Positions 12,409-30,276 of a stretch of 46,907 bases of DNA are shown here, piece by piece. The notes beneath the pieces were generated by a model. That model was given only the letters and a program-made list of their open reading frames with translations. It was not told where the DNA came from and made no database searches. Source of the stretch: a virus; IMG/VR virus record IMGVR_UViG_3300028556_000015, positions 1 to 46,907 of that record. One strand, written 5' to 3'. Numbering within the stretch: position 1 is the stretch's first letter; each line of letters starts with the position of its first letter. A program made the translations under genes and the position numbers.

Positions 12409-12611
12409 TGGGCGGATTACAAGATTGGCTACCAACACAATTAGAAGGCATTAAAGACAAAGCCTTTGCAGAAGCTTTCGGACATGAATATAAGCATTCC
12501 GATGGTAAATACTATGCCCTACCAGAGTTTGATAACTATTTCGGCGTAAACAGATCATATAGCGGTATCTGGACCTCTATAATCAAAGAAATCCCTGACA
12601 ATGAAGATTAA
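12408..12611 (+). CDS. Small hypothetical protein next to portal
   Basis: 67 aa, aromatic-rich (YFGVNRSYSGIW) and acidic. No family recognised. It overlaps the portal gene start by 11 bases, so it is probably co-translated and may be a minor assembly factor. Confidence 0.5.
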   Translation: MGGLQDWLPTQLEGIKDKAFAEAFGHEYKHSDGKYYALPEFDNYFGVNRSYSGIWTSIIKEIPDNED

Positions 12612-14511
12612 ACAAGCACCAGGACCTAAAGCAAAGGTCGTATTCAAAACTAAGCAAGACCATGCATCTAGCATATTAGCCCAATGGTGGTTGACTAAGG
12701 ACTCAGATAAGGCAGCAGCAGAGATGCTTACGTCTGCTGCCTACCTAAAAGAGTCTCAGGCTTACCGCTACCGCCAAGCAGCTATCTATGCAAGGTTATA
12801 CGGTAATCAAAGTCTATACTCCTTTGCAGGATCTAATATAAGCAAGATGGACCAAACTTATGGTCTTCCACAAGAACGTCCTACGTTTAACCTAATACAA
12901 TCAGTAACCGATACCTTGGTATCGCGGATAGCCCAGTCTAGACCACAACCAGTATTCCTAACATCTAACAGTGACTACAAACAACGCAATCTTGCAAAAA
13001 AGTTGAATTCATTCATATTAGGTGAGTTCCATAATACCAAGGCATACGAGTTAGGCACTACTGCTCTTAGAGATGGGCTAGTAGAAGGCACAGGTGTAAT
13101 CCACGTATTCGAGACACCAGATAACCGTGTAGGTCTAGAACGCGTCTTGCTAACCGAATTATTGGTTGATCCCAATGAAGCAATGTACGGTGAGCCACGA
13201 CAATTATACCGTCTTAAGCTAATAGATAGAGATGTACTCCTTGCTAACTTCCCGAAACTTAAAGAGAAAATCGAAATGGCAGCAAAAGGGACTCCAGACA
13301 ATAGTGCTGATAGTTCTAAGTCCGTTTCAGATCTAGTAATGGTAGTAGAAGGATGGCACCTTCCATCAGGTAAAGGCATGGGTGATGGACGCCATACTAT
13401 TGCATGCTCATCTGGTAGCCTATTAGATGAGCCATTCGATAAAGAACGCTTCCCATTCTCCTTCTTACACTATGCTCCACGGCTATTAGGCTTTTGGGCA
13501 CAAGGTGTAGCAGAGCAGCTAATGGGTACTCAGATGGAGCTAAACTCTATTCTATATACAATCTCTAGAGCCATCAAACTCGTAGGAGTACCAAGAGTAT
13601 TCCAAGAAGAAGGCGCTAAAGTCGTATCAGCACACCATAACAATGAAGTAGGTGTAATCGTTAAATATCGTGGAATTAAGCCTACATACGAAGTAGCTCC
13701 ATGTAATGCTCCAGAACTATACGCTGAAAGGGATAAGTTAATACAATATGGCTACCAGCAATCCGGTGTTTCAGCACTACAAGCCTCAAGTCAAAAACCT
13801 CAAGGCCTCGACTCGGGTGAGGCTATCCGCACGTACGACGATATCAGTACTGATCGTTTCGCTAGTCTTGCACGTCGTTACGATAACTTTTTTATTGATT
13901 TATCATATCAAATAATCGACTTAGCTAAAGACATATGTGAACGCGATGATGGCTATTCTACTGTATATCCTAATAAGAATGGTATTAAAGAGATTGATTT
14001 AAAAGCAGCAGACGTAGTTAAAGACACCTTTGTAATCCAATGCTTTACCCAGTCTAGCCTACCTAAAGATCCTGCAGGACGCCTCCAAAAGGTAGCAGAG
14101 ATGATCCAAGCAGGTATGATTACAGTCCAAGAAGGTCGTAGACTCCTTGACTATCCAGATCTAGATCAAGTAGAAAAGCTAGCAAATGCAGCAGAAGAGC
14201 GTGTATTCCAGATATTAGACGATATCATTGAGTCTGGTAAGTATACACCTCCAGACCCTTTTATGGACTTAACCTTTGCTGAAAAGACTGTAGTCCAGTA
14301 TATCAATCTATACTCTCAGGCTAAGTTAGAAGAGAGTAAAGCAGATAAGCTCCATATGTTCTTCTCTCAAATCCAAGATATTAAGCAGGCCGCCCAACCG
14401 CCTCCAATGCCTCAACCCCAAGGTGCTCCAGCCCCTCAGGCTAACCCCCAAGCACCTCCAACATCCCCATTAGTACCTAATAGCCCTAACCCCCAAGGAG
14501 CAGCACAATAA
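12601..14511 (+). CDS. Portal protein (head-tail connector)
   Basis: 636 aa, the size of P22-type podophage portals. The dodecameric portal forms the DNA channel, nucleates capsid assembly and docks terminase. Supporting pattern: early RQAAIYARLYGNQ and PTFNLIQSVTDTLVSRI; a mid-protein GLVEGTGVIHVFE strand region with LLVDPNEA; PFSFLHYAPRLLGFWAQGVAEQL; and the downstream SSQKPQGLDSGEAIRTYDD, typical of portal stems. The last 40 residues are Pro/Gln/Ala-rich and disordered. Position between terminase and scaffold/capsid agrees. No start ambiguity. Confidence 0.88.
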   Translation: MKIKQAPGPKAKVVFKTKQDHASSILAQWWLTKDSDKAAAEMLTSAAYLKESQAYRYRQAAIYARLYGNQSLYSFAGSNISKMDQTYGLPQERPTFNLIQSVTDTLVSRIAQSRPQPVFLTSNSDYKQRNLAKKLNSFILGEFHNTKAYELGTTALRDGLVEGTGVIHVFETPDNRVGLERVLLTELLVDPNEAMYGEPRQLYRLKLIDRDVLLANFPKLKEKIEMAAKGTPDNSADSSKSVSDLVMVVEGWHLPSGKGMGDGRHTIACSSGSLLDEPFDKERFPFSFLHYAPRLLGFWAQGVAEQLMGTQMELNSILYTISRAIKLVGVPRVFQEEGAKVVSAHHNNEVGVIVKYRGIKPTYEVAPCNAPELYAERDKLIQYGYQQSGVSALQASSQKPQGLDSGEAIRTYDDISTDRFASLARRYDNFFIDLSYQIIDLAKDICERDDGYSTVYPNKNGIKEIDLKAADVVKDTFVIQCFTQSSLPKDPAGRLQKVAEMIQAGMITVQEGRRLLDYPDLDQVEKLANAAEERVFQILDDIIESGKYTPPDPFMDLTFAEKTVVQYINLYSQAKLEESKADKLHMFFSQIQDIKQAAQPPPMPQPQGAPAPQANPQAPPTSPLVPNSPNPQGAAQ

Positions 14512-14738: not shown

Positions 14739-15749
14739 ATGAAAGTCATCCCACAAGGTGCTACCGCGCCTACAGGCCCACAAGGTCCTACTCCTGCTCA
14801 AGATGCACGCGCAAGAGCAATTGCTAGATTAACAGAACAACCAGTATTAGACGCTACCAAAGTCACTGCAGAAGAGATGAGTGCAATCATCCCTCAAAAA
14901 GGACAGGAAGACAATAGTGCAGAGCTAGTAGAATCAAGCCCTGAACCCCAAACTATCAATGAAGCTAAAGCAGAAGAGCCTAAACTAGACCAGCAATATC
15001 AATTGCTTGCTAGGAAAGAAAAGGCCATTCGTGCTCAGCAACGTCAAGCCCAAGAACAGATCAAGTCTAGGGAAGACGCTATTGCGGCTAGAGAAGCTGC
15101 TATTACTGCTAGAGAAGAAGAGTATAAGACTAATTACATATCTAAGTCTTCTCTCCTTAACGATCCTTTAACAGTATTAGAAGAGCAAGGCCTTGACTAC
15201 GATAGACTAACCCAACAGGCTATTAACCGTCAACCTCTAGACCCTAGAGTTGAGCAGTTTATGCGCCAACAGCAAGCAACTATTGATAAGCTGCTAGAAG
15301 CTCAGAAATCACAAGAAACTAGAGCAGTAGAAGCACAAGACGCTCAATATAAACAAGCCTTGAAACAGATCAAGACTGATACTACTGAACTTGTAAAGTC
15401 AAGTGATGAGTACGAAATGGTGAGACTAACAGGCTCTATTAACGATGTAGTTGAACTCATCGAAAAGACCTGGAATGAAGAAGAACGTCTCATGACAGTA
15501 GAAGAAGCTGCTCAAGAAGTAGAAGAATATTTAGTTGAGTATGCAGAACGTTTAGCTAAATCTAAAAAGATCCAGACACGTCAATCTAGTAGACCTGCAG
15601 TCGAAAGAGAAGCGAATAAGCAGACACCTAGTCAAAGTAATAAGCAGCCACAAACAATGAAAACCCTAACAAATGCCACGGGTTCTACGCGGACGCTCAG
15701 TGCGAAAGAACGTGCAATATTAGCATTTAAAGGGGAGCTTAAATCTTAA
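14739..15749 (+). CDS. Scaffolding protein
   Basis: 336 aa. Composition and position fit a prohead scaffold: disordered Pro/Gln start, a long charged coiled coil (ARKEKAIRAQQRQAQEQIKS through AREEEY, about residues 90-130), more helices, and a basic C-terminal segment (TLSAKERAILAFKGELKS) that could be the capsid-binding helix. It lies directly before the major capsid gene. Scaffold proteins diverge strongly, so the call rests on architecture and context. Confidence 0.8.
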   Translation: MKVIPQGATAPTGPQGPTPAQDARARAIARLTEQPVLDATKVTAEEMSAIIPQKGQEDNSAELVESSPEPQTINEAKAEEPKLDQQYQLLARKEKAIRAQQRQAQEQIKSREDAIAAREAAITAREEEYKTNYISKSSLLNDPLTVLEEQGLDYDRLTQQAINRQPLDPRVEQFMRQQQATIDKLLEAQKSQETRAVEAQDAQYKQALKQIKTDTTELVKSSDEYEMVRLTGSINDVVELIEKTWNEEERLMTVEEAAQEVEEYLVEYAERLAKSKKIQTRQSSRPAVEREANKQTPSQSNKQPQTMKTLTNATGSTRTLSAKERAILAFKGELKS

Positions 15750-15886: not shown

Positions 15887-17170
15887 ATGGCTGCTATTTA
15901 TGCCAATAGTTCCAACCAGATTGCTGCGTTGAAAGAACTATACACGGATGATAAAGAATATATGAAGGATCTAGTATACAAGGAAAACCCTTTCCTTGCA
16001 CTAGTTCCAAAAAACGAATCACCAGATGGATTTGCTGGTAAGTATATCCCAGTACCACTAGAATATGGTACTCCGCAAGGTCGTTCGCATGCATTTGCGA
16101 ATGCTCAAAACCAACAAACAGCTACTCAATTGGCTTCATTCTTCGTATTTGTGATTAATGATTACCAATTAGTAACTATTACTAACCTCCTTATGGAACA
16201 GACTAAGACTAACGCTGGTGCGTTTGTTGATGCTGCTAAACTCCAAATGGATGGTGGGTTCCGTAACATTACCAACAACATCGCATTCGAAATCTTTGCT
16301 GATGGTTCTGGTCAACGTGGATCTATTGGTTCAACTGATTCTTCTGCAGCACCGACATATGTAATTACATTGTCTAATGCTCAGCAAGTAGTTCAGTTTG
16401 AAGTTGGTATGACATTAGTTAACTTCACTAATACAGCAGGTCTTATTTCTGCAGTATCTGCTTCTACAGCAGTTATCCAAAAGGTAGATCGCGCAAACGG
16501 TATTATTACTGTTCTTGCATCTGCAGTGGATGCTTCTTGGGCAGCTGCTGGAAAAGCACTTGGCGTATCTGGTGACGTTGTTTCTGGTGCTTCTGGTACT
16601 GGTAGTTATCTTGCATTGTCAGGATTAGCTGCGTGGGTTCCAACAGCAACTCCAAGCAATTCTGATAGCTTCTGGGGAGTTAATCGCTCTGCAGATCCTA
16701 CACGTCTTGCTGGTCTCCGATATAATGCTCTTGCATATACTATCGAAGAAGGTATGACTAATGCGTTAGCGTTCCTTAACCGAGAAGGTGGAAAACCAGA
16801 CCTATGTGTAATGGATTTCTCTTCATATGCTGCACTTGTAAACGCTTTGGGCGCAAAGGTCCAATACGTTCAAGTCAACCATGACGAAGTAGAAGTTGCA
16901 TTCGAAGGTATTACTTTCCAATCAGCTTATGGTCGAGTAACGGTTCTTGCAGATCGTTCATGTCCTCCACAGACTGCTTACCTCCTTACTATGAATACAT
17001 GGAAACTCCGTTCACTCGGAAAAGTTCCACATATTCTTACTTATGGAATGGAAGGCCTCGAAGGTCTCAGAGTAGGAAATGCTGATGCTTTGGAAATCAG
17101 AATTGGCTATTATGGCAATTTGATTTGTAGCGCACCAGGTTGGAATTGCGTAGTACAATTAAGTGCTTAA
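15887..17170 (+). CDS. Major capsid protein
   Basis: 427 aa. Expected HK97-fold coat protein. N-terminal MAAIYANSSNQIAALKELY with KENPFLALVPKNE and later KYIPVPLEYGTPQGRSHAF is a common podophage coat pattern. A beta-rich stretch (about 165-215) may be an inserted surface domain. The C-terminal part ends in GLRVGNADALEIRIGYYGNL and CAPGWN. It follows the scaffold, has a 137-base untranslated leader with two hairpins, and is closed by two terminators, all consistent with a highly expressed coat gene. No protease-type leader peptide is evident. Confidence 0.9.
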   Translation: MAAIYANSSNQIAALKELYTDDKEYMKDLVYKENPFLALVPKNESPDGFAGKYIPVPLEYGTPQGRSHAFANAQNQQTATQLASFFVFVINDYQLVTITNLLMEQTKTNAGAFVDAAKLQMDGGFRNITNNIAFEIFADGSGQRGSIGSTDSSAAPTYVITLSNAQQVVQFEVGMTLVNFTNTAGLISAVSASTAVIQKVDRANGIITVLASAVDASWAAAGKALGVSGDVVSGASGTGSYLALSGLAAWVPTATPSNSDSFWGVNRSADPTRLAGLRYNALAYTIEEGMTNALAFLNREGGKPDLCVMDFSSYAALVNALGAKVQYVQVNHDEVEVAFEGITFQSAYGRVTVLADRSCPPQTAYLLTMNTWKLRSLGKVPHILTYGMEGLEGLRVGNADALEIRIGYYGNLICSAPGWNCVVQLSA

Positions 17171-17555: not shown

Positions 17556-17738
17556 ATGAATAGGAGTTTTAAAGAGTTCATAAATGAACAATATCCTACT
17601 TTATGTAATAGAGATAAAGATTTAATGGCAGATTGTATTCATAAATGGTTTTATGGTGGTCCAGATCATAAACCATTGACTTTTATCGAAAAATTAACCG
17701 TAGTCTATCAAATTTTAACTAACAGGAGAAAACAATGA
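17556..17738 (+). CDS. Small hypothetical protein ahead of the MoxR gene
   Basis: 60 aa, helical, with aromatic and charged residues (FKEFINEQYP, HKWFYGGPDHKP). No family recognised. A good purine-rich ribosome-binding site (AAAGGAAGAG) precedes the ATG, and the stop overlaps the MoxR start by four bases, suggesting it is made together with the AAA+ pair. Confidence 0.5.
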   Translation: MNRSFKEFINEQYPTLCNRDKDLMADCIHKWFYGGPDHKPLTFIEKLTVVYQILTNRRKQ

Positions 17739-18841
17739 ACATTAAGAACTTTAAGGAAGCACTACCCTACCTAGCACAATCAGAAGTAACTCCATTTATC
17801 TGGGGCCATGCAGGTATTGGTAAATCAACTATCGTAAAACAATGGGCAGATAGCTTAGGCTATAAGTTCTTTCCCTTTTATCTTGGTACACAATCTGACT
17901 TAGGAGATATTCTTGGACTTGCTGATTTTGTTAGAGACAGTGACGGTAATCCTGTTGCTACTACTTTTGCTATACCTAAATGGCTTAAAGAAACCATTGA
18001 CTATTGTGAACAAAATCCAGATTCTGGTGCTGTTATTTTCCTTGATGAGTTCAATAGGGCTCGTCGTGATATCCTTAATGGAATGTTTTCGCTTGCACTA
18101 GATAAGACCTTTCATACACTTAAACTACCAAAGAATTGTCATCTCGTAGCAGCTGGTAATCCTCCTACTGAAGAGTATGTAACTACAGATGTAGATGAGA
18201 CTGCATTAATGGCTAGATTCGTCCATATCAAGTTAGAGCCGACTATCGAAGAATGGTTAGAGTTTGCTAAAGAGACTAAAATCGATACTAATCTAGTAGA
18301 GTTTATCCGCCAACAACCAGAGCTATTAGAAGAAAAACGAAGTGAGTTTAAGCTTCCTATTAAGGTAGATAGACGCGCATACTCTCGTTTGAATAAGCTA
18401 ATCGCCTTGAATACTCCTGCACACCTTATGCAAGACCTTATGATTGGTATCATTGGACTAGAGCGTACAGTTGCTTATGGTGAATTCCTTAAGTCTCAAG
18501 ATAAGCCAATGACAGGAGAAGAAGTCCTAAAAGGTAACTTTAAGTTAGTAGAGAAATGGAGTAATCCAGAGAATATAAACGGTAGCCTCCTATCAATTAC
18601 ATGTGAGAATGTCTTGGCTCATTTAAAGGGATTAGATGAAGCTAAAACTATGCTAGCAGATAAAGAGAAGAAGAATCTAGTAAAATTCTTTTTAATCGTC
18701 CCTAAAGACGTTAGCTATAAGGCTATCAAAGAACTTGCTATTAATGAATCTGCTGTATTTAAAGACCTTTGTAATACTAAAGACTATGAGAAGCAGTTAC
18801 TAGAAATAATCAGGATTGCTAAAGGAACTAAGGCGGCTTAA
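17735..18841 (+). CDS. MoxR-like AAA+ ATPase
   Basis: 368 aa. Walker A GHAGIGKS (24-31), Walker B IFLDEFNRA (101-109), sensor-1 Asn in AAGNP (Asn142) and an arginine-finger candidate Arg161 place it in the MoxR/RavA clade. Such ATPases act as chaperones that mature or insert cofactors into partner proteins, usually paired with a VWA protein. Here the partner is the next gene, joined by a TAATG overlap. Its place between capsid and head-tail genes points to a role in virion assembly or in remodelling a host complex; this is inference. Confidence 0.85.
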   Translation: MNIKNFKEALPYLAQSEVTPFIWGHAGIGKSTIVKQWADSLGYKFFPFYLGTQSDLGDILGLADFVRDSDGNPVATTFAIPKWLKETIDYCEQNPDSGAVIFLDEFNRARRDILNGMFSLALDKTFHTLKLPKNCHLVAAGNPPTEEYVTTDVDETALMARFVHIKLEPTIEEWLEFAKETKIDTNLVEFIRQQPELLEEKRSEFKLPIKVDRRAYSRLNKLIALNTPAHLMQDLMIGIIGLERTVAYGEFLKSQDKPMTGEEVLKGNFKLVEKWSNPENINGSLLSITCENVLAHLKGLDEAKTMLADKEKKNLVKFFLIVPKDVSYKAIKELAINESAVFKDLCNTKDYEKQLLEIIRIAKGTKAA

Positions 18842-19998
18842 TGAATAACTCAGTATCTCAGGCATTAGTCCGTTTATTCGAAGAAGAGCGGTTCTATGCT
18901 GAATTGATTTGCCAAATGGATAGGTTTGAAGGCAAGAAGGTTCCTATTGCTGGAGTCTGTATTAAAGATAGGATTGAACTTCACATCAATCCTGATACAT
19001 TTGGTAAATATCCAATCGAAGAGCGTACGGCTATCTTAAAGCATGAATGTGAGCATATCTTAAGGGACCACATTTCTAGAATGAAAGATTATGATAGTTC
19101 TATTTATGCTAAATCTACTAAAGAAGGCACAGAACGTATTGTAGAAGATATTATTAATAGCCAGAAACATAAGAGTTTAAATATTGCTGCTGATCTAGCC
19201 ATTAATGGTATTATTAAGAATGTTCCTGAAGGTGGAATGTTTCCAAAGAACTTTGATTTACCTAATGGCGAGACCTTTGAATGGTATATAGCACAGTTAA
19301 AGGATAATCCAAAGGCTAAAGGAGCTATGGAGTTCGATGACCATGCTATTTGGCAAGAGAGTACTGAAGGAGAAGAGATCCTTAAGGAAAAGGTAAGACA
19401 AGCAGTAGAAAAGGCAGCGCAGAATACAAGGAATGCAGGCAAGATGACTGCCCATGACGAACTATTAGTCTCCAAGTTTGCTAAAGAGACTGTTAACTGG
19501 AAGGCCCAACTACGTAGATTCGTGGCTAGGAGTCTAGAGACTGTATTAGATACTAGCAAGAAGAAGAGAAATCGTAGGTACGGTATAATGTACCCAGGCA
19601 CTATCAAGACTGAAGTCCTCCATATTGGAGTAGCAATTGATACATCTGGAAGTGTATCAGACGAAGCATTAAATCAGTTTATGGCAGAAATCCATCAAAT
19701 CCATAAGACAGGTGCTGTTATTACAGTCGTAGAAGCCGATAGCGAAATTAAGAATCATTATGAATACAATCCTAAGAAGCAATACAAAGTCTCAGGACGG
19801 GGAGGTACGGCCTATCAACCAGCCTTCGACTTCTTTAATAAAGAAAAAGGCATTGATGCTATGATTTACTTTGGCGATATGGATTGTTTCGATACAGAAG
19901 AGATTAAGAAGCCTAAATACCCCGTACTTTGGGCAATCGTAGGTGACCAGAAGCCTCCTGCATCCTTTGGTAGTCAATTAAAAGTAAAAGTAAGCTAA
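18841..19998 (+). CDS. HExxH metallopeptidase-like protein with C-terminal VWA domain
   Basis: 385 aa. The N-terminal domain matches the DUF2201/putative metallopeptidase family: LKHECEHILRDH with zinc ligands His68 and His72 and Glu69, then NIAADLAIN (114-122). The C-terminal domain is VWA-like, with MIDAS motif DTSGS (267-271), GGT near 321-323 and FGDMD (344-348). This two-domain layout is the usual partner of MoxR ATPases. No separate capsid maturation protease is visible in the window, so this protein is a candidate, but no substrate is shown by sequence. Coupled to the ATPase gene by TAATG. Confidence 0.85.
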   Translation: MNNSVSQALVRLFEEERFYAELICQMDRFEGKKVPIAGVCIKDRIELHINPDTFGKYPIEERTAILKHECEHILRDHISRMKDYDSSIYAKSTKEGTERIVEDIINSQKHKSLNIAADLAINGIIKNVPEGGMFPKNFDLPNGETFEWYIAQLKDNPKAKGAMEFDDHAIWQESTEGEEILKEKVRQAVEKAAQNTRNAGKMTAHDELLVSKFAKETVNWKAQLRRFVARSLETVLDTSKKKRNRRYGIMYPGTIKTEVLHIGVAIDTSGSVSDEALNQFMAEIHQIHKTGAVITVVEADSEIKNHYEYNPKKQYKVSGRGGTAYQPAFDFFNKEKGIDAMIYFGDMDCFDTEEIKKPKYPVLWAIVGDQKPPASFGSQLKVKVS

Positions 19999-20485: not shown

Positions 20486-20685
20486 AGAGCTATGTACACA
20501 TATCTTACCTATCAGGAGAGTGGAGTCTAAACATTACTCTCTTTGAAGGTGAGAAGGTCGTTAACCATAAAGTTATCTATAGAGATCGGCTACATGAGCT
20601 ATTAGATGTAGCAGCTACTCTACAATTACAGATTGACAATGAAGATGAATTGCCATTAAAATTATACTTAAGGATGGGCGCATAA
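20482..20685 (+). CDS. Small hypothetical protein
   Basis: 67 aa, mixed alpha/beta (HISYLSGEWSLNITLFEGEK, then a Leu-rich helix), no known family. It overlaps the genes on both sides through ATGA and TAATG junctions. Confidence 0.5.
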   Translation: MKSYVHISYLSGEWSLNITLFEGEKVVNHKVIYRDRLHELLDVAATLQLQIDNEDELPLKLYLRMGA

Positions 20686-21152
20686 TGAACTACCAAGCAG
20701 AAATAGAAAAACTCCTAAATAAAAATAAATTTTCTATATGTTTCCTAGTTCGCTTTGCATTGTCTTGTGCAAGAGATGTAGAAGAATACGATAAAACTAA
20801 CAAGTCTAAAGAATGTAATGATATTACTCAGCTTTGGCTAAACGGAAAAACAACAGTACAAGAAATAAAAGCCGCCTCCGCCGCCTACGCCGCCTCCGCC
20901 ACCGCCTCCGCCTCCGCCTCCTACGCCGCCTACGCCGCCAACGCCGCCGCCTACGCCGCCTACGCCGCCAACGCCGCCAACGCCGCCGCCTACGCCGCCG
21001 CCTACGCCGCCTACGCCTACGCCGCCGCCGCCGCCGCCTACGCCGCCTACGCCTACGCCGAAGATAGAAATAAATATAGTAAAAAGTACTATGATATTTT
21101 AATAGGAATGATTAATGATTTAACCGAAATACAAAAGGAGTTTATGTCATGA
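20685..21152 (+). CDS. Ala/Tyr-repeat protein of unknown function
   Basis: 155 aa. Residues 1-62 are an ordinary charged helical domain containing WLNGKTTVQEIK. Residues 63-125 are only Ala, Tyr, Ser, Asn and Thr (AAYAASATASASAS style). Residues 126-155 return to a normal helical domain (YYDILIGMINDLTEIQKEF). Alanine-rich helices with periodic Tyr/Asn occur in a number of phage proteins with a similar N-terminal WxxGxxT segment, function unknown. The repeat is written entirely with codons ending in C, unlike the AT-ending codons of every neighbour, so it likely grew by DNA slippage. Repeat length may vary between relatives. Confidence 0.7.
   Translation: MNYQAEIEKLLNKNKFSICFLVRFALSCARDVEEYDKTNKSKECNDITQLWLNGKTTVQEIKAASAAYAASATASASASYAAYAANAAAYAAYAANAANAAAYAAAYAAYAYAAAAAAYAAYAYAEDRNKYSKKYYDILIGMINDLTEIQKEFMS
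20871..21059 (+). repeat. GCC/TAC codon microsatellite
   Basis: 63 consecutive codons, all of form NNC: mainly GCC, with TAC, TCC, AAC and ACC. Larger units such as GCCGCCTACGCC recur many times. Local GC is about two thirds in a genome well below 50 percent. Confidence 0.95.
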
Positions 21153-21550
21153 AATACCTAATCATAATGATGTTACTGCTAAGTGCTTGTAAAGGAAACT
21201 CAGGAGCTACTATTGTAGGACCTAAAGGCGATATCGGTCCTATTGGTGATACAGGCCCTGCAGGGATTAATGGAACTAACGGTAGTAACGGGACTAATGG
21301 TCAAGATGGTGCAGTAGGTCCTAAAGGAGCAGATGGTACTATCATTACACCAATCCAGTTCTGCCCTAATGTACATCCAGTCTACCCATCTACATTCCCT
21401 GAGTATGGAGTCTGTATTAATGGAAATATCTTTGCTGTATATTCTGCTAATGATGGGTTTCTAGCATTAATCCCGCCAGGAGTGTATAGTTCTAATGCAA
21501 TTGGTAGTTCTTGTACCTTCACCGTATTAGCTAACTGTCAGATCCAATGA
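21149..21550 (+). CDS. Collagen-like lipoprotein
   Basis: 133 aa. A signal peptide with lipobox (IIMMLLLSAC, Cys14) should give an outer-membrane or inner-membrane lipoprotein. Residues about 24-66 are Gly-X-Y repeats (GPKGDIGPIGDTGPAG, then NGTNGSNGTNGQ, then GPKGADG) able to form a short triple helix. The C-terminal about 65 residues form a compact domain with four cysteines. Lipoproteins of this kind are known in bacteria, so it was probably captured from a host, and could alter the infected cell surface. Strong ribosome-binding site AAAGGAG; four-base overlap with the Ala/Tyr gene. Confidence 0.8.
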   Translation: MKYLIIMMLLLSACKGNSGATIVGPKGDIGPIGDTGPAGINGTNGSNGTNGQDGAVGPKGADGTIITPIQFCPNVHPVYPSTFPEYGVCINGNIFAVYSANDGFLALIPPGVYSSNAIGSSCTFTVLANCQIQ

Positions 21551-21783: not shown

Positions 21784-21924
21784 ATATAGTACCTTAAAAG
21801 GACTTCTAGGCATGGTTAGGTATGAGATCCCCTCAAACCTTCCCCTCCGGCCTACCTAGAAGCCCACGGGTGAGACAAGCTATACGCCTCTGTCAGTAAC
21901 CTAGGTAATGAGGGTATCTATATC
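21783..21924 (+). ncRNA. Structured leader RNA, class unknown
   Basis: The 138-base gap folds on paper into a closed structure. P1 pairs GATATAG (21783-21789) with CTATATC (21918-21924) and TACC (21790-21793) with GGTA (21913-21916), leaving one bulged T. P2 pairs CTTCTAGG (21803-21810) with CCTAGAAG (21855-21862). P3 pairs AGGTATGAG (21818-21826) with CTCAAACCT (21832-21840) with one A-A mismatch. ACCTAG (21854) can also pair with CTAGGT (21901). The 3' arm of P1 covers the ribosome-binding site GAGGG and the putative start of the next gene, so folding may control its translation. No known riboswitch or ribozyme class was recognised. Confidence 0.5.
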
Positions 21925-22605
21925 GCTAATCGTAACTACGCGTCCGCAGGACGCATCTATTCAATGCACGTCAAGCCAGTTCTTCTTGATGTTAACTTCG
22001 TAGTTGACTCAGCAAATGGTAATGGTCTTGGGATTAGAAGCCTAAAAGGCCCAATGATTCAAGCAGTTTACATGCATACATCTGCTACTCCTGCTCCAGG
22101 TAATCCAAATCCAGCACCAGGCACTATTATAGTACAGTTAATGGATAACTTTAACCGTTCATTCTCTGGTTTTAACTCAATCGTAAGCCCAGTATCAGGT
22201 ACTCCAATCGTCCCTACCGGTTCTAACCTAACTATCGGCGCTCCATACATTCTAGCCTCTGTAGGCGCTTTAACAGCAGCAGATGCTATCCTTCTTGGTA
22301 TTCCACAAGGTCTTAAACCAGCAGCAGGTCTGTCTTTCATTGCACAAGCAACAGGCGTAGCTTCTGGTGGATCTAGCGTAGTAGAAGCAGCAGCTTCAGC
22401 AGGTTCTGGAGTAGCATCTATTGAAACACTTGGTGATCCAAATCTGAGTATTGCTCCAAATGCTCTTTTAAATCAAGGCTTTGGTGCTCAGTTTATCCTT
22501 CAATGTAGAGGTTATGGCGGAGCAATTGCTGCTCCTGCAGATGGTTCTGTAATCTCTTTAGCCTTATACCTAAGTGATTCTTCTATTACAGTTCAGGGGG
22601 AGTAA
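21922..22605 (+). CDS. Virion (decoration-like) protein, short paralogue; probable ATC start
   Basis: 227 aa if begun at ATC 21922, or 213 aa from the first ATG at 21964. Residues encoded from 21925 (ANRNYASAGRIYS) match the beginning of the next protein (MANRNYANGGRIYS), which starts with ATG at the equivalent codon, and GAGGG lies seven bases upstream of the ATC. The body aligns with the next protein along both flanks: PVLLDVNFVVDS, GIRSLKGP, IIVQLMDNFNR, SIETLGDP and AAPADGSVISLALYLS. A beta-rich capsid-decoration or head-fibre protein is likely from its place before the head-tail adaptor; the function is inferred. Confidence 0.65.
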   Translation: MANRNYASAGRIYSMHVKPVLLDVNFVVDSANGNGLGIRSLKGPMIQAVYMHTSATPAPGNPNPAPGTIIVQLMDNFNRSFSGFNSIVSPVSGTPIVPTGSNLTIGAPYILASVGALTAADAILLGIPQGLKPAAGLSFIAQATGVASGGSSVVEAAASAGSGVASIETLGDPNLSIAPNALLNQGFGAQFILQCRGYGGAIAAPADGSVISLALYLSDSSITVQGE

Positions 22606-23966
22606 TGGCTAACCGAAATTATGCTAATGGCGGTAGGATTTACTCGCCTTTTGTCTCTCCAGTACTCCTTGATTGTAACTTCGTAGTAGATAGTACTAAC
22701 GGAAATGGCTTTGGAGTCCGAAGTCTTAAAGGGCCTACTATTGCAAATGTATATATGCAATCTTCTGCACCTAACTCTAAAAACCCTTTAGTTCCTAGTG
22801 TTAACCCTCCAGTAAACTCTATTAACCTAGCAACTGCAGCTAACTTTGCTATTTTAGCAGCTTCTGCCATTACAGGTAGTACAGGTGCTGGTAGTGTAGT
22901 TACTGGAGATATGGGTATTTATCCAAATAACCTAACTTCTGTAACCAATTTCCCTCCTAGTGTAGACATTGGTACAATCCATGCAGCAGATTCAGCAGCA
23001 AACCAAGGTCTTATTGATGCTAACTCAGCATTCGTAGCTATTAATGCTCTTGCTAGTGGTGCAACAGCCATCTCTTCTACATTAGATGGCCAGACACTAA
23101 CACCTGGTAACTATAAAGAAGCTTCTGGTACTTTTAACCTAGCACAATCAGGTCCAGGAACTCTTACCTTTAATGGTCCTGGTACTTATAACATCATTGC
23201 TTCTAGTACACTTACTACAGGAGCAGGCGGACTTCCTACAATGGCCTTCTCTGGTGGAGCAAATGCTTCAAATACCTTTATTAACTGGGCAGTAGGCTCT
23301 TCAGCTACTATCAACTCTGGTGTATCTAGTGCAGGAGCAGTATTCTATGGAAACATCATTGCTCAAGCATCAGTTACTGCTACACAAGCAGGTACAATTG
23401 ATGGTAGATTAGTTGGTTTGACTGGTGCAGTTACTCTTAGCGATACTAATGCTGTTAATAAGCCAATTCCAGCTGCTCCTTCTAGCCCTTCTGCAGGTGT
23501 AATCATAGTCCAGTTCCAGGATAACTTTAATAAGCTTTTAAAAGGCTTTAAATCTATTGTATCTCCTGCATCTGGAACATCACTATCTTCTACTATTGCT
23601 AACCAACCAATGATCATTACATCATTAGGATCTGCTACTCCTGCTCAATTCCAGGCAGTAGGACTTCCAAAAGGTATTACTCCAGCAGTAGGAGTATCAT
23701 TCATTGCTTCTTCTTCTAGTCTAATTGGTGGTGGAGCATCAGTAATGCAGGCAGCATCTGCTGGTTCAGGTATTTTATCTATTGAAACAGTCGGAGATCC
23801 TAATGCGTCTATTGCTCCAGATCCTACTAAAAACCAGGGCTTCGGTGCTCAGATTATTCTACAAGCACGTGATTACACTGGGGCTAATGCTGCTCCTGCT
23901 GATGGCTCTGTAATTAGCTTAGGCTTCTTATTTAGTAATAGCGGTGTCACCGTCAAAGGAGAGTAA
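22605..23966 (+). CDS. Virion (decoration-like) paralogue with inserted DUF3494 ice-binding-like domain
   Basis: 453 aa. Residues 1-66 and about 290-453 align with the preceding 227-aa protein. Between them, residues about 72-288 match the DUF3494/ice-binding-protein family: LATAANFAILAASAITGSTG, VVTGDMGIYPNN, HAADSAANQGLIDANSAF, LDGQTLTPGNY, TFNGPGTYNI, NTFINWAVGSSATINSG, FYGNIIAQASVT and GTIDGRLVGLTGAVTLSDT. This family forms a discontinuous beta-solenoid; members bind ice or act as adhesin domains. The insertion site is a proline-rich loop in the shorter paralogue, so the domain is probably displayed on the virion surface. Strong GGGGGAG ribosome-binding site; TAATG coupling. Confidence 0.85.
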   Translation: MANRNYANGGRIYSPFVSPVLLDCNFVVDSTNGNGFGVRSLKGPTIANVYMQSSAPNSKNPLVPSVNPPVNSINLATAANFAILAASAITGSTGAGSVVTGDMGIYPNNLTSVTNFPPSVDIGTIHAADSAANQGLIDANSAFVAINALASGATAISSTLDGQTLTPGNYKEASGTFNLAQSGPGTLTFNGPGTYNIIASSTLTTGAGGLPTMAFSGGANASNTFINWAVGSSATINSGVSSAGAVFYGNIIAQASVTATQAGTIDGRLVGLTGAVTLSDTNAVNKPIPAAPSSPSAGVIIVQFQDNFNKLLKGFKSIVSPASGTSLSSTIANQPMIITSLGSATPAQFQAVGLPKGITPAVGVSFIASSSSLIGGGASVMQAASAGSGILSIETVGDPNASIAPDPTKNQGFGAQIILQARDYTGANAAPADGSVISLGFLFSNSGVTVKGE

Positions 23967-23969
23967 GCC

Positions 23970-25025
23970 GTGTCTGGCGCTCCTTCCACGCCTAATAACA
24001 TGTATGTCCAAACAGCTAACCAGCAAATCTTGGTTAGTTGGGACTTATCTGTAGGGGCGACATCATATATAATCCAGAGAAGTCTAGATAATGTAACCTT
24101 TTCTGTACTCGTTACTCTATCAGGCTCTCCACTTGCTACTCAATACATAGATACTACAGGAGTTTTAAATACCCAGTACTTCTATAAGGTTGCAGCATCT
24201 AACATCTTAGGGACTAGTCCATATACTTCTCCACAGTCTGTAGTTCCAGTAGCAGCTGGTGAGATGAGTCTTGGTAGGGTACGCCAGTTATCTCAAGAAA
24301 AAGCTGATAGGGTTAACTCTAACTTTGTAACGCTTCCTGAATGGAACTCCTTTATTAATCTAGCAATGTATGAACTATACGATTTACTCATTACAGTCTA
24401 TGAAGACTACTACATCGGTACTCCAGTCCAGTTTACAGCAGATGGGCTTACATTCCTATATCCCCTTCCAAATGGATCTAATACCTTTGTAAATAGCCTT
24501 AACCAGACTAGCTTTACACCTCCTGCCTTCTATAAGCTAATTGGTGTAGATTTAGCACTTAACTCTGCTTCAAACGCCTTTGTGACTGTAAACAAGTTCC
24601 AATTCTCTGAGAGAAATAGATTCGTATATCCTAATACAGCTTCTACTATCTATGGTGTATTCAATCTCCAATATCGCGTAATGGGTAAGAACATAGAGTT
24701 TATACCTACTCCATCTGGTAATCAGATCATCCGACTATGGTATATACCTAGATTGACTGAGCTTTTAGCAGATACTGATCCTACTGAAACATCTATTTCT
24801 GGATGGATTCAGTATGTAATTACTAGAGCAGCTAAGTATGCATTAGATAAAGAAGAATCAGATACGACTAAACTAGATCAAGAACTTATGTTCCTAAAAG
24901 CTAGAATTGAAGAGACTGCAGCAAATCGTGATGCTGGTATGCCAGATAAGATCTCAGAAGTTAGACAGAGTAGTAATGGTGGCGATTGGAACGGCGGCAA
25001 TAATGGGCCGATTGGTGGATTCTAA
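23970..25025 (+). CDS. Head-tail adaptor with N-terminal fibronectin type III domain
   Basis: 351 aa, GTG start with AAAGGAG upstream. Residues about 3-93 form an FN3 domain: PSTPNNMYVQ, ILVSWDLSVGATSYIIQRS and YFYKVAASNILGTSPYTSP. The rest looks like a podophage adaptor (gp4/gp11-like ring below the portal): VNSNFVTLPEWNSFINLAMY, ELYDLLI, FYKLIGVDLAL, QIIRLWYIPR and a helical ISGWIQYVITRAAKYALDKE. The C-terminus is Gly/Asn-rich. FN3 modules on virion proteins are thought to aid weak surface adhesion. The fusion of FN3 to the adaptor itself is unusual. Confidence 0.75.
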   Translation: MSGAPSTPNNMYVQTANQQILVSWDLSVGATSYIIQRSLDNVTFSVLVTLSGSPLATQYIDTTGVLNTQYFYKVAASNILGTSPYTSPQSVVPVAAGEMSLGRVRQLSQEKADRVNSNFVTLPEWNSFINLAMYELYDLLITVYEDYYIGTPVQFTADGLTFLYPLPNGSNTFVNSLNQTSFTPPAFYKLIGVDLALNSASNAFVTVNKFQFSERNRFVYPNTASTIYGVFNLQYRVMGKNIEFIPTPSGNQIIRLWYIPRLTELLADTDPTETSISGWIQYVITRAAKYALDKEESDTTKLDQELMFLKARIEETAANRDAGMPDKISEVRQSSNGGDWNGGNNGPIGGF

Positions 25026-25757: not shown

Positions 25758-27241
25758 TGGCTAATGTAAACCTATCTCCTGACATGAATCTGCCTATACC
25801 AATAGTAGGCGTAGCTCCTGGTCCTGAGTATGCTCAAGATGTAAATAACTGCTTGACGCTAATCGATAGCCATGATCATACACCTGGTTTTGGTGTACAG
25901 ATTACTCCCGCAGGCATTAACATTAATACTACCTTTAACATCAATAACCAGCTATTAGCAAACGTTGGTGGTATTCAGCTTACTTCCCAGGTAGTAACAC
26001 CTAGTATTAGTTCGATTTATGAGTCAGGAACTGATCTATTCTTCGTAGATGGATTAGGTAATAACATTCAGATCACTCAGAATGGTGGTATTGCTGGTAG
26101 CCCAGGCTCTATCTCTAACCTAACGCCTCCTGCATCTGCTGCATATATCGCAGGTTCTAGTACTTTCGTATGGCAGTCTGGTGTAAACATTGCTGCTAAT
26201 ATGGACTTTGGATCGGCAATCCTTAGAAATCTAAGCCCTAACTCTACTTTTGGGTTGACTCTATCTCCGCCATCTCTTAGCTCTAACTATACTCTTACTC
26301 TTCCTTTAGTTCCTGCAGTATCTTCATTCCTTCAAATAGATACTTCTGGTACTATTACAGGCCAAGTACCTGTAACTACTATACTTCCTAGCAATGCCGG
26401 TACTCAAGGCCAGATACTACGACAAAGCGGTAGTGGTCAACCAATCTTCCAGAATCTACTCCAGAATATCCAAACAAAAACCAGTACTTATGCTATCTCT
26501 AATGTAGATGATGTAATCCTTGTATCTGGTGGAGTATTTACTGTAACCCTTCCTGATGCTACTACAATTCAAGGTAAACAGATCATTATTAAGAAGACAG
26601 ATGCTAGCTTAACTAATGTCATTACAATTGCTACAAGTCTAGGCCAGACTATCGATGGTGCTTCTACTAGGACGTTAAATACTATCTCTGAGATATATAC
26701 AGTAGTCTCTGATGGTGCTAATTGGCAGATCATAGAGCATGAGACTGTAACTCCGTTTGTTACGACTACATCTACTATTACAGCTACTACTACTAATCCT
26801 ACTAAAGGCGCTACTCCAGTAACAGACAATGTTGTATGGCGTCGTAATGGCCAATTCATGGAGATTAACTTTACTTACTACCAAACTACTGCTGGAGTAG
26901 CAGGCCTTGGTGCATACCTCTTTACTATTCCTAGCTCTTTGCTATTAGACTCATCAGTTAACATTGCTACCGGCACTATAGATCAAACCCACGTCGGTAT
27001 TGGCGGTACTGCTCTTGGAGTAGGATTTACTTCTAATAGTGCTAATGCTGGTACTGGAGTAGTTTCTCGTACAATTGTACTTCCCTTTAGTACTTCTAAA
27101 TTATATATGTTAGCCGAATTCCAAGGTGGAAGCAATGCTCAGTCTGAATCTTGGGGCACAGGCCAAGGCATCGGCTTTGCTACTAATCCATATTACGTCA
27201 CATTTAGTGCAAGGTTACCAATAGCCGGCTGGAGTGCTTAG
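25757..27241 (+). CDS. Tail fibre protein, first locus
   Basis: 494 aa from the ATG at 25757, which overlaps the preceding stop; a reading from 25730 would add nine residues from inside the upstream gene. The N-terminus contains PDMNLPIPIVGVAPGPEYAQ and SHDHTPGFG. The middle is fibrous Thr/Ser/Asn repeats. A beta domain with VDDVILVSGGVFTVTLPDAT and QTIDGASTRTL is shared with the fibres at 40486 and 42080. The C-terminal head ends FSARLPIAGWSA, like the ISVPISGWQP end of the 40486 protein. It probably attaches to the adaptor or hub, with the tip recognising the host. Confidence 0.75.
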   Translation: MANVNLSPDMNLPIPIVGVAPGPEYAQDVNNCLTLIDSHDHTPGFGVQITPAGININTTFNINNQLLANVGGIQLTSQVVTPSISSIYESGTDLFFVDGLGNNIQITQNGGIAGSPGSISNLTPPASAAYIAGSSTFVWQSGVNIAANMDFGSAILRNLSPNSTFGLTLSPPSLSSNYTLTLPLVPAVSSFLQIDTSGTITGQVPVTTILPSNAGTQGQILRQSGSGQPIFQNLLQNIQTKTSTYAISNVDDVILVSGGVFTVTLPDATTIQGKQIIIKKTDASLTNVITIATSLGQTIDGASTRTLNTISEIYTVVSDGANWQIIEHETVTPFVTTTSTITATTTNPTKGATPVTDNVVWRRNGQFMEINFTYYQTTAGVAGLGAYLFTIPSSLLLDSSVNIATGTIDQTHVGIGGTALGVGFTSNSANAGTGVVSRTIVLPFSTSKLYMLAEFQGGSNAQSESWGTGQGIGFATNPYYVTFSARLPIAGWSA

Positions 27242-30200
27242 TGGCACTACAAAAACAACCCGTAATAATTAACTTCCAACAAGGAATTGATACCAAGACA
27301 GATCCTTACCAGCTACCCGTTGGTAAGTTCTTGACTATGGTAAACTCTGTCTTTGATATTGCTGGCAGGCTTACAAAACGTAATGGTTTCAAGAAGTTAA
27401 CTACACTTCCAGATGATAACCAGACTACTCTTACAACGCTAAACAATAGTCTCATCGCTACTGGTACTAACCTCCTTAATTACTCAGCAGATACAGATAC
27501 TTGGATAAACCAAGGTAAGATCCAACCAATTGGATTAGATGTTACTCCACTCCTTAGAGACTCTAACAATGATATCTCTCCAGATACGGCTATTACTTCA
27601 TTAGGGCTTACCTGTTTAGTCTATATGACAGGAGCTAATACTAGCTACTATATCATTTCAGACTCTACTACAGGACAGGTAATAGTTCCTAGGACTGCAT
27701 TACCAAGTACTGCTACTAATCCACGTGCATTCCTATTAGATAAATACTTTGTCATTACTTATACAGCAACGGTTGGTGGTACTTCTCATCTCCAATATAT
27801 TGCCATTCCAATAGCAATGCCGGCTTCTCCTAGGGCTCCTGTAGACATTGCTACTACACTGAATACACTACAAGCAGGTTATGATGGTGTAGTAGCTAAT
27901 GATGCCCTTTATATATCCTGGTCTGATACAGGTACTATTATCAGGACTGCATTACTCTCTAGTACCTTAATACTATCATCTGCTATCAATACAGCAGGGC
28001 ATACAGCAGATCTAGTAAGCGTAACTGCTGATATCTCAGGTAATTCTCCAATCATTTGGGTAACCTTCTGGGACTCAGGTTCTAATAACGGCTATTCTAT
28101 GGCATTTGATAGCCATTTAAACTCTGTATTAGCTCCAACCCAGGTAATTACAGGCATAGTAATCGATGAGATCACTTCTGTTGCTACTAATGGGATTAAT
28201 ACTATTTTATATGAAAACTTTAATGACTATGCATCTCCTTACCCAACCCCTGTTAAAAGCGATTACGTCAGCAAGGTAACGATTTCGCAGGTAGGGGTAG
28301 TGACGGGGCCAGGGGTAGTGCTTAGAAGCGTAGGGCTAGCCTCTAAAGCCTTTACAGATAGTGGTGTAGTATACTTCATAGCAACATATGGAGAAGCTAA
28401 CCAACCGACTTACTTCCTTGTAGATGATTCTGGAAGCGTTTATATGCGTTTAGCCTACTCTAATGGTGGTGGATATAAGCCTTCCCAAGTCCTCCCTAGC
28501 GTATCTACGATTAATAACGTCCATATGGTAGCCTACGAGTTTAAAGACTTCCTTGCTACTGTAAACAAAGGGCCTACGCTTAACCAACCTACTAACTCTC
28601 CTAGTCTAGTACCTTTAAATGCTATATACACTCAGACAGGTATTAATTTAGCTAAGTTCAGCATTAATAACTCAGGCCAGTTTTCATCAGAGATTGCTAA
28701 TACTTTACACCTAACTGGTGGTCAACTATGGATGTATGATGGTGTACGTCCAGTAGAACATGGCTTCCAGGTATGGCCAGAAGATATACAGGTTACTACA
28801 GCAGCTACAGGCGGTTTAATTACTGCCCAAGAGTATAACTATGTATTTACATATGAATGGACTGATAACCAAGGAAATCTACATAGATCTGCTCCTTCTA
28901 TTCCAATCTCTGTTATAACTACAGGTGCTGTATCTACTAATACATTGTATGTACCTACACTACGTATTACTGATAAGATCTCACCTAATCCTGTTAGGAT
29001 TGTAGGATATCGCTGGAGTACTGCCCAACAAGTATATTATCAATTCACCAGTATTACAGCACCAGTATTAAACAATACGGCTATAGATTTCGTAGTAATT
29101 ACAGATACTAACGCTGATTCTGCTATTCTTGGTAATACTCTTTTATACACACAAGGTGGCGTAATAGAGAATATAGCTGCTCCTGCTTCTACTGTATCGG
29201 CACTCTTTAAAAATAGACTCTTCATCGTAGATGCAGAAGATAGGAATTTACTATGGTATTCAAAACAAGTCATCGAGGCGGTCCCAGTTGAAATGTCCGA
29301 TCTGTTCACGATTTATGTTGCACCGACATCAGGGGCCCAAGGCTCTACCGGACCTATCACTGCTTTGTCGGCAATGGACGATAAGCTCATCATATTTAAG
29401 CGTGATGCTATCTACTATGTCACAGGAACTGGACCTGACAATACAGGAGCAAATAATGATTTCTCAGACCCGATCTACATTACAAGTTCTGTCGGATGCG
29501 CTAACCAAGCTTCCATTGTGCTCATGCCCAACGGAATTATGTTCCAATCAGACAAAGGTATCTGGCTCTTAGATAGAAGTCTAGGTACTCAATACATCGG
29601 TGCTCCAGTAGAATCATTTAATGCAATCCCAGTAAAGTCTGCTGTATCTATACCTGGTACTAACCAGGTCCGTTTCATCCTTAATAACGATGTAACTCTT
29701 ATGTATGATTACTTTTATGCTCAATGGGGGACGTTTAGTAACCTAAGGGCTATTAGTAGTACACTATATAACCAGACTCAAGTCTATTTAAATGCATTTG
29801 GACAAATCCTTCAAGAAACTCCTAACTACTATTTAGATGATTCTAAACCAGTACTTATGAGTGTAGGGACTGGGCCTATCTCTGTTGCTGGTTTAAGGGG
29901 CTTTGAACGCTTCTATTTTATGTACCTTCTTGGTACTTATATTACACCATTTAAGTTAAATGTAGGTATCTCTTATGACTTTAGCAATAATCCTAGCCAG
30001 ACTATCCAAGTAACTCCTGATAACTATGTTCCTGATTGGGGTTTAGAGGCTCTCTGGGGCTCTAATGGCCCTTGGGGCGGACCTGGAAACGTATTCCAGG
30101 CACGTATATTCCCTGAAAGACAGAAGTGTCAGACATTCCAGATAAACATCAATGAGATATATGATGCTTCATATGGAGTTATTGCTGGTCAAGGATTGAC

Positions 30201-30276
30201 TTTATCAGGCATGAATCTAGTAATCGGCGTTAAAAAGGGTTACAGTCCTCAAAAGGCTTCAAGGTCATTTGGGTAA
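27241..30276 (+). CDS. Tail hub/nozzle protein (P22 gp10 or T7 gp12-like)
   Basis: 1011 aa, GTG start at the preceding TAG (overlapping by one base). The N-terminus PVIINFQQGIDTKTDPYQLP and VFDIAGRLTKRNGFKKL is typical of podophage tail hub proteins. The C-terminal half has LFIVDAEDRNLLWYSKQ, ALSAMDDKLIIFKRDAIYYV, GIMFQSDKGIWLLDRSLGTQ and WGTFSNLRAIS, the beta-propeller-like pattern of packaged-DNA stabilisation/nozzle proteins. It should plug the portal-adaptor channel and extend the tail. Placement after the adaptor agrees. Homology to a particular named family is from memory. Confidence 0.75.
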   Translation: MALQKQPVIINFQQGIDTKTDPYQLPVGKFLTMVNSVFDIAGRLTKRNGFKKLTTLPDDNQTTLTTLNNSLIATGTNLLNYSADTDTWINQGKIQPIGLDVTPLLRDSNNDISPDTAITSLGLTCLVYMTGANTSYYIISDSTTGQVIVPRTALPSTATNPRAFLLDKYFVITYTATVGGTSHLQYIAIPIAMPASPRAPVDIATTLNTLQAGYDGVVANDALYISWSDTGTIIRTALLSSTLILSSAINTAGHTADLVSVTADISGNSPIIWVTFWDSGSNNGYSMAFDSHLNSVLAPTQVITGIVIDEITSVATNGINTILYENFNDYASPYPTPVKSDYVSKVTISQVGVVTGPGVVLRSVGLASKAFTDSGVVYFIATYGEANQPTYFLVDDSGSVYMRLAYSNGGGYKPSQVLPSVSTINNVHMVAYEFKDFLATVNKGPTLNQPTNSPSLVPLNAIYTQTGINLAKFSINNSGQFSSEIANTLHLTGGQLWMYDGVRPVEHGFQVWPEDIQVTTAATGGLITAQEYNYVFTYEWTDNQGNLHRSAPSIPISVITTGAVSTNTLYVPTLRITDKISPNPVRIVGYRWSTAQQVYYQFTSITAPVLNNTAIDFVVITDTNADSAILGNTLLYTQGGVIENIAAPASTVSALFKNRLFIVDAEDRNLLWYSKQVIEAVPVEMSDLFTIYVAPTSGAQGSTGPITALSAMDDKLIIFKRDAIYYVTGTGPDNTGANNDFSDPIYITSSVGCANQASIVLMPNGIMFQSDKGIWLLDRSLGTQYIGAPVESFNAIPVKSAVSIPGTNQVRFILNNDVTLMYDYFYAQWGTFSNLRAISSTLYNQTQVYLNAFGQILQETPNYYLDDSKPVLMSVGTGPISVAGLRGFERFYFMYLLGTYITPFKLNVGISYDFSNNPSQTIQVTPDNYVPDWGLEALWGSNGPWGGPGNVFQARIFPERQKCQTFQININEIYDASYGVIAGQGLTLSGMNLVIGVKKGYSPQKASRSFG

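Follow-up and report, generated by a model that had tools for sequence, protein, structure and literature searches.

The window, the stretch of DNA analysed here, comprises 46,907 nucleotides (positions 1 to 46,907 of IMG/VR virus record IMGVR_UViG_3300028556_000015). Within a cluster of capsid and tail genes it encodes two adjacent and related proteins. The first, referred to as the plain copy, is preceded by a conserved leader RNA, and the second carries in its interior a domain of the DUF3494 family (Table 1).

Table 1. Features of the window that bear on the DUF3494-bearing gene, in order of position.
Feature	Position	Strand	Evidence
Portal protein	12601..14511	+	PF16510, E 2.9e-7; phrog_156, E 1.2e-16
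Probable scaffolding protein	14739..15749	+	Assigned from its place between portal and major capsid protein in relatives
Major capsid protein, SU10 type	15887..17170	+	PF17236, E 1.7e-5, above cut-off
Conserved leader RNA, about 113 nt, running up to the plain copy's start codon	21812..21924	+	Covariance model, 70.5 bits, E 2e-13
Plain copy, probable capsid decoration protein, all-beta sandwich, 227 aa if started at ATC	21922..22605	+	Structure model, pLDDT 88.7, pTM 0.78
Second copy, 453 aa, with DUF3494 domain	22605..23966	+	ORF call
N-terminal part of the beta-sandwich scaffold, residues 1-71	22605..22817	+	Alignment to plain copy
DUF3494 / PF11999 Ice_binding domain, residues 72-288	22818..23468	+	Profile match to residues 83-281 (window 22851-23447)
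C-terminal part of the beta-sandwich scaffold, residues 289-453	23469..23963	+	Alignment to plain copy
Probable head-tail adaptor, fibronectin-III-like N-terminal part	23970..25025	+	PHROG matches only at residues 3-88; conserved neighbour; role presumed
Structural protein of the virion (probable tail nozzle or hub)	27241..30276	+	phrog_3287, E 1.4e-9; phrog_511, E 1.8e-9; conserved synteny

An earlier note on this DNA had recognized the domain as DUF3494 from the letters of the sequence, and profile searching bears this out. PF11999 (Ice_binding) matches the 453-residue protein with an E-value of 8.5e-25 and 88.1 bits, against a curated cut-off of 28.7 bits; the match spans positions 1-205 of the 208 in the profile, which is the whole domain, and a six-frame search of the window returns it at the same interval. 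By sequence, the nearest solved chain is that of an Antarctic ice-binding protein, 6eio (E 1.3e-22). A model of the insert, built from a nine-sequence alignment and with domain pLDDT values mostly between 60 and 91, superposes on 6eio with a Z-score of 26.9 and an rmsd of 2.2 over 207 residues, and reaches Z-scores of 24-27 against 25 solved ice-binding or antifreeze entries. The predicted fold of beta-solenoid coils and a long flanking helix (residues 130-152) is the one that had been anticipated; the end of the insert, placed earlier at 23470, is corrected to about 23468 (residue 288).

All of these sequences come from metagenome contigs and have no cultured relatives, as would be the case if the gene had arisen through faulty assembly or the mis-binning of bacterial DNA. 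Such an origin can practically be dismissed. A gene 99% identical to it occurs on another contig, and more than 10 further contigs carry versions that differ clearly, so that the gene is neither a chance occurrence nor an assembly join; the architecture is common to independent contigs of different metagenomes, the flanking phage genes keep a constant order and the reading frames are open.

On either side of the domain, the 453-residue protein aligns with the plain copy, as described before, at an identity now measured as 52% over 241 residues, and residues 72-288 have no counterpart there, again as described. The model of the plain copy, derived from 55 natural sequences, is an all-beta sandwich, and the insertion point falls in the loop between its strands 46-50 and 68-73, a proline-rich stretch in relatives whose loop is empty. 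The paralogue alignment and the models thereby support the proposed duplication and insertion into a loop. Foldseek found no match to the scaffold fold below 1e-3 in PDB and BFVD, where the best VIA-align Z-score, 6.6, was not significant, and profile searches with the plain copy returned no Pfam or PHROG family; the term ‘decoration protein’ is accordingly used without the backing of homology.

The length of 227 residues first given for the plain copy holds if translation starts at ATC 21922, the alternative being 213 residues from ATG 21964. Homology reaches the ATC, and a Shine-Dalgarno-like GAGGG precedes it. ATC or ATA likewise occupies the conserved start-methionine position in relatives L005 (3652), L036 (5959), L051 (41) and L060 (6001), in each case behind a Shine-Dalgarno-like sequence, and owing to a stop codon there is neither ATG nor GTG nor TTG in between in L005 and L051. 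Non-AUG initiation at the decoration gene of the window and these four relatives is possible. The plain copy's stop codon and the ATG of the DUF3494 copy share letters (TAATG), and the second copy is thus probably translationally coupled to the first.

The covariance model of the leader RNA was built from 11 sequences, that of the window among them. It finds the leader once each in 24 of the 60 sources searched, with two contigs counted twice, and relatives outside the model set have it at the same place. The leader ends exactly at the start codon in 22 of the 24, and a few bases before it in L089; the contigs with a leader directly at the decoration gene are the window, L003, L021, L023, L025-L030, L034, L039, L040, L042, L046-L048, L058, L060, L083 and L089. 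In search windows set by eye, own stems did better than swapped ones for three helices (p 0.0002, 0.001 and 0.006); single-sequence folding was not significant (z -0.72) and no Rfam family matched. The early, upstream arm is able to base-pair with the Shine-Dalgarno sequence region, and the leader is possibly a translational switch or thermosensor; given the overlap of the DUF3494 copy with the stop of the plain copy, it may control both genes. An endonuclease-like ORF, judged by eye to be of HNH type, lies just upstream of the decoration gene in L005 (3185-3647), where it separates leader from gene, and in L036 (before 5959).

The virion location of the two proteins is read from gene context. 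The order of portal, scaffolding protein, major capsid protein, beta-sandwich gene and presumed adaptor is kept in more than 20 related contigs, and the portal of the window is P22-like. An SU10-type major capsid protein, a P22-like portal and this gene order lead naturally to a role in capsid decoration or as a head fibre, and since both copies lie between the major capsid protein and the presumed adaptor in these contigs, capsid decoration is the best reading. The conserved order also supports well the earlier prediction of a virion protein. None of the cultured phages matched P0001, P0002, the L109 scaffold, the L049 DUF3494 domain or the portal or major capsid protein of the window, and a search of 396 genomes from the phylum to which L261, an Acidobacteriaceae MAG, belongs gave no match to the window portal, a search run with no positive control.

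Other genes of the cluster may be recorded here. A MoxR-type AAA ATPase paired with a DUF2201 metallopeptidase/VWA protein occurs at 17735-19998 of the window and also in L003, L065 and L074, and in some relatives the MoxR-VWA pair comes after the major capsid protein. Near the decoration genes lie a low-complexity ORF of Ala/Tyr repeats (20685-21152, 155 aa) and a short collagen-like ORF with GPxG repeats (21149-21550, 133 aa).

Genes with the same Pfam domain have been reported from viral genomes before. The available text of one study describes PF11999 genes in three Arctic vOTUs and suggests host cryoprotection (PMC11515562, 2024), that is, an auxiliary metabolic gene whose ice-binding product shields the infected host from freezing; no virion-protein fusion appears in that text. 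In the window, by comparison, the domain is no stand-alone product and forms part of a protein whose gene lies between those for major capsid protein and adaptor, beside a plain paralogue; in other phages it sits inside sheath and baseplate proteins, an arrangement needless for a free secreted protein. This insertion into virion proteins argues against host cryoprotection here, and we consider that explanation very improbable.

The same scaffold loop carries DUF3494 in 13 distinct versions, including that of the window, and in other scaffold relatives the loop is empty or holds different inserts. A single plain copy is present in L009-L012 and two plain copies in L005, and a plain copy followed by a DUF3494 copy in the window, L003, L013 and L135. 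The four last-named fit the proposal that insertion followed duplication; at least six relatives (L059, L061, L063, L150, L153 and L171) speak against it as a general rule, as the only copy seen there bears DUF3494, and this version is apparently able to serve alone.

On a scaffold tree computed with the insert columns removed, the DUF3494 carriers need 11 changes, at least four of them forced by well-supported branches, and their union in one clade is rejected (AU p 1e-37). The carriers are not monophyletic, and DUF3494 has thus been gained or lost repeatedly. The DUF3494 copy of the window groups with that of L003 (SH-aLRT 99) and those of L013 and L135 group with their own plain neighbours (SH-aLRT 90 and 88), which suggests separate duplicate-and-insert events. 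In the tree of the insert itself, a single scaffold-borne clade (single insertion) was not rejected (AU p 0.15).

Other inserts include a domain of about 65 residues in the same loop and inserts of 110-250 residues in a second loop, none of the non-DUF3494 inserts having a Pfam match. Hmmalign put some loop-2 inserts at loop 1, and loop assignment was therefore taken from a separate comparison. L132 and L186 have DUF3494 beside, or inside, a beta-domain that recurs in phages (YYVWYNVSGG...DSAATVA). The likeness of this beta-domain to the loop-2 insert of the scaffold family suggests that domains were inserted in a nested manner.

That two or three loops of the scaffold take several unrelated inserts, and that DUF3494 is scattered over the trees, would suit a neutral or structural filler, a passive and easily inserted domain spreading through a tolerant loop with no binding role. 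The pattern of conservation makes this improbable. The window and L003 share 83% identity in the insert and 64% in the flanks, with dN/dS of about 0.12 and 0.18, respectively, values that are rough owing to high dS; by this comparison of sequences the insert is better conserved than the scaffold flanks and is under purifying selection. Insert and flank are similar in GC content (0.415 and 0.419). Furthermore, of 67 phage domains 97-100% have Thr in one presumed outward column of the solenoid (residues 202, 235, 258 and 277), and up to five DUF3494 matches occur per phage record, in different virion proteins. The adjacent column reads mostly Thr, Asn, Thr, Ser in phages against Thr, Gly, mixed, Asp in cellular domains, with Asn 237 and Ser 279 where cells usually have Gly and Asp. 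The Thr column marks a conserved surface, from which ice binding is not readable; proven ice binders differ at the same columns, so that these face residues are compatible with ice binding but not decisive for it.

Scanning IMG/VR with the domain alignment yielded 122 encoding stretches and showed that DUF3494 extends beyond the capsid locus. In other phages it lies inside tail-sheath proteins, phrog_279 being matched by all seven long ones tested and phrog_2839 by that of L198, and inside baseplate proteins (L128, with PF04865 Baseplate_J and phrog_6; L134 and L155, with phrog_6). A single 32.8-kb contig encodes three proteins with the domain, one of them a sheath and one a baseplate protein. 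Its occurrence in several virion proteins of one phage was seen in L166, L128, L147 (contig 3300029922_000210) and in other records.

Most of the sheath-borne domains are circularly permuted, matching the profile from about 54-204 first and then from about 2-60, and in the sequence of L179 each DUF3494 element is present once despite the permutation. This form, with the helix-bearing C-terminal part first and the N-terminal strands second, was observed mostly in sheath proteins (L161, L164, L177, L179, L187, L188, L190, L201 and others); L181, a relative of the phage of the window, has a permuted domain at the decoration locus.

In a tree of 102 domains, 57 phage domains form one clade (SH-aLRT 98) apart from cellular ones, the latter having been sampled with phage-derived patterns, and scaffold, sheath and baseplate versions are intermixed within it. 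Identity between the phage domains and the cellular domains compared does not exceed about 58%, and cellular relatives include Streptomyces, Kitasatospora and Nonomuraea. Searching INPHARED (50,697 phage genomes) gave no match to the domain; the same query recovers plasmid-borne cellular members at 47% identity, so that sensitivity was adequate for relatives that close. Synechococcus phage S-SKS1, named as a viral carrier of homologues in the available text of the Arctic study (PMC11515562), gave no PF11999 match.

We favor the reading, with a probability of about 0.6, that the window encodes an adhesive DUF3494 domain displayed on a capsid decoration protein and most likely binding ice or another ordered, hydrated surface. 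The scaffold would be the decoration protein of a podophage-like virus, its beta-sandwich binding the capsid shell and its exposed loop accepting whole extra domains. The second, probably coupled copy would bear a complete DUF3494 in that loop and, with a plain copy alongside, virions would show a mixture of both subunits. DUF3494 itself would be an accessory adhesion module, drawn from a phage-borne pool that also feeds sheath and baseplate proteins. Its ligand would most likely be ice or another ordered, hydrated surface such as mineral, polysaccharide or cell wall, and binding would hold particles at ice-water or particle interfaces, or protect them during freezing. We infer both the exposure of the domain on the particle and its adhesive function; ice is a plausible ligand, and the leading guess because every close solved relative is an ice-binding protein, with glycans or mineral surfaces next in line.

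A displayed DUF3494 domain could instead bind cell-surface or matrix polysaccharide, as is thought for the Ig-like domains of Hoc, and aid in finding hosts or staying near them, with ice irrelevant. In the literature DUF3494 figures as both ice-binding and substrate-binding and is placed in many habitats, ice-free ones included (PMC12337378), the cellular relatives named above are not organisms of ice, placement in sheath and baseplate suits cell contact, and other phages place different domains in the same loop. Nevertheless, all 25 close structural matches are ice-binding or antifreeze entries with no glycan-binding DUF3494 structure among them, and the sheath, away from the receptor-binding tip, fits general adhesion over receptor choice. 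A host-surface or glycan adhesin is for us an unlikely explanation, if one of real weight.

Our preferred reading, surface adhesion with ice as the leading ligand, has its closest parallels in separate systems. The domain shares a full-length profile match and the predicted beta-solenoid with long helix with DUF3494 ice-binding proteins (6eio of an Antarctic consortium; Antarctomyces IBP, 7bwx; SfIBP_1, 6bg8), but is here embedded in a phage structural protein, its ice activity being a prediction, and the versions borne by phage scaffold, sheath and baseplate proteins make up a clade of their own. The available text on the ice adhesin of Shewanella frigidimarina describes DUF3494 with tandem beta-sandwich domains, a potential surface adhesin that is cellular and not viral (PMC9957290). 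T4 Hoc, in the accessible parts of its literature, exemplifies a capsid-surface protein with accessory domains that vary between relatives (PMC10385173; review PMC7602432). Hoc strings Ig-like domains in tandem, whereas the accessory domain here is loop-inserted and modelled as a beta-solenoid, a fold that is not Ig-like. A literature search found nothing combining ice-binding, DUF3494 and phage. The earlier note knew of no described phage virion protein of this design; this stands for the literature searched and is to be qualified by the reported PF11999 genes in viral contigs, as given in the available text (PMC11515562), and by how common the design is in IMG/VR.

It is tempting to speculate more widely, and we do so tentatively, that many uncultivated tailed phages display ice-binding domains, recruited from a DUF3494 pool of the phages' own and circularly permuted where needed, on their capsids, contractile sheaths and baseplates, and that the particles thereby bind ice or withstand freezing. 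DUF3494 might then be a virion display domain comparable to the Ig-like domains. If true, this would add a new class to the domains displayed on virions, one that in sheath proteins occurs in a naturally permuted form, and viral PF11999 genes would have to be reread, from host-protecting genes to parts of the virion. Phages in freezing soils must persist outside their hosts, and virions that carry ice- or surface-binding domains would provide a concrete mechanism for their persistence and retention.
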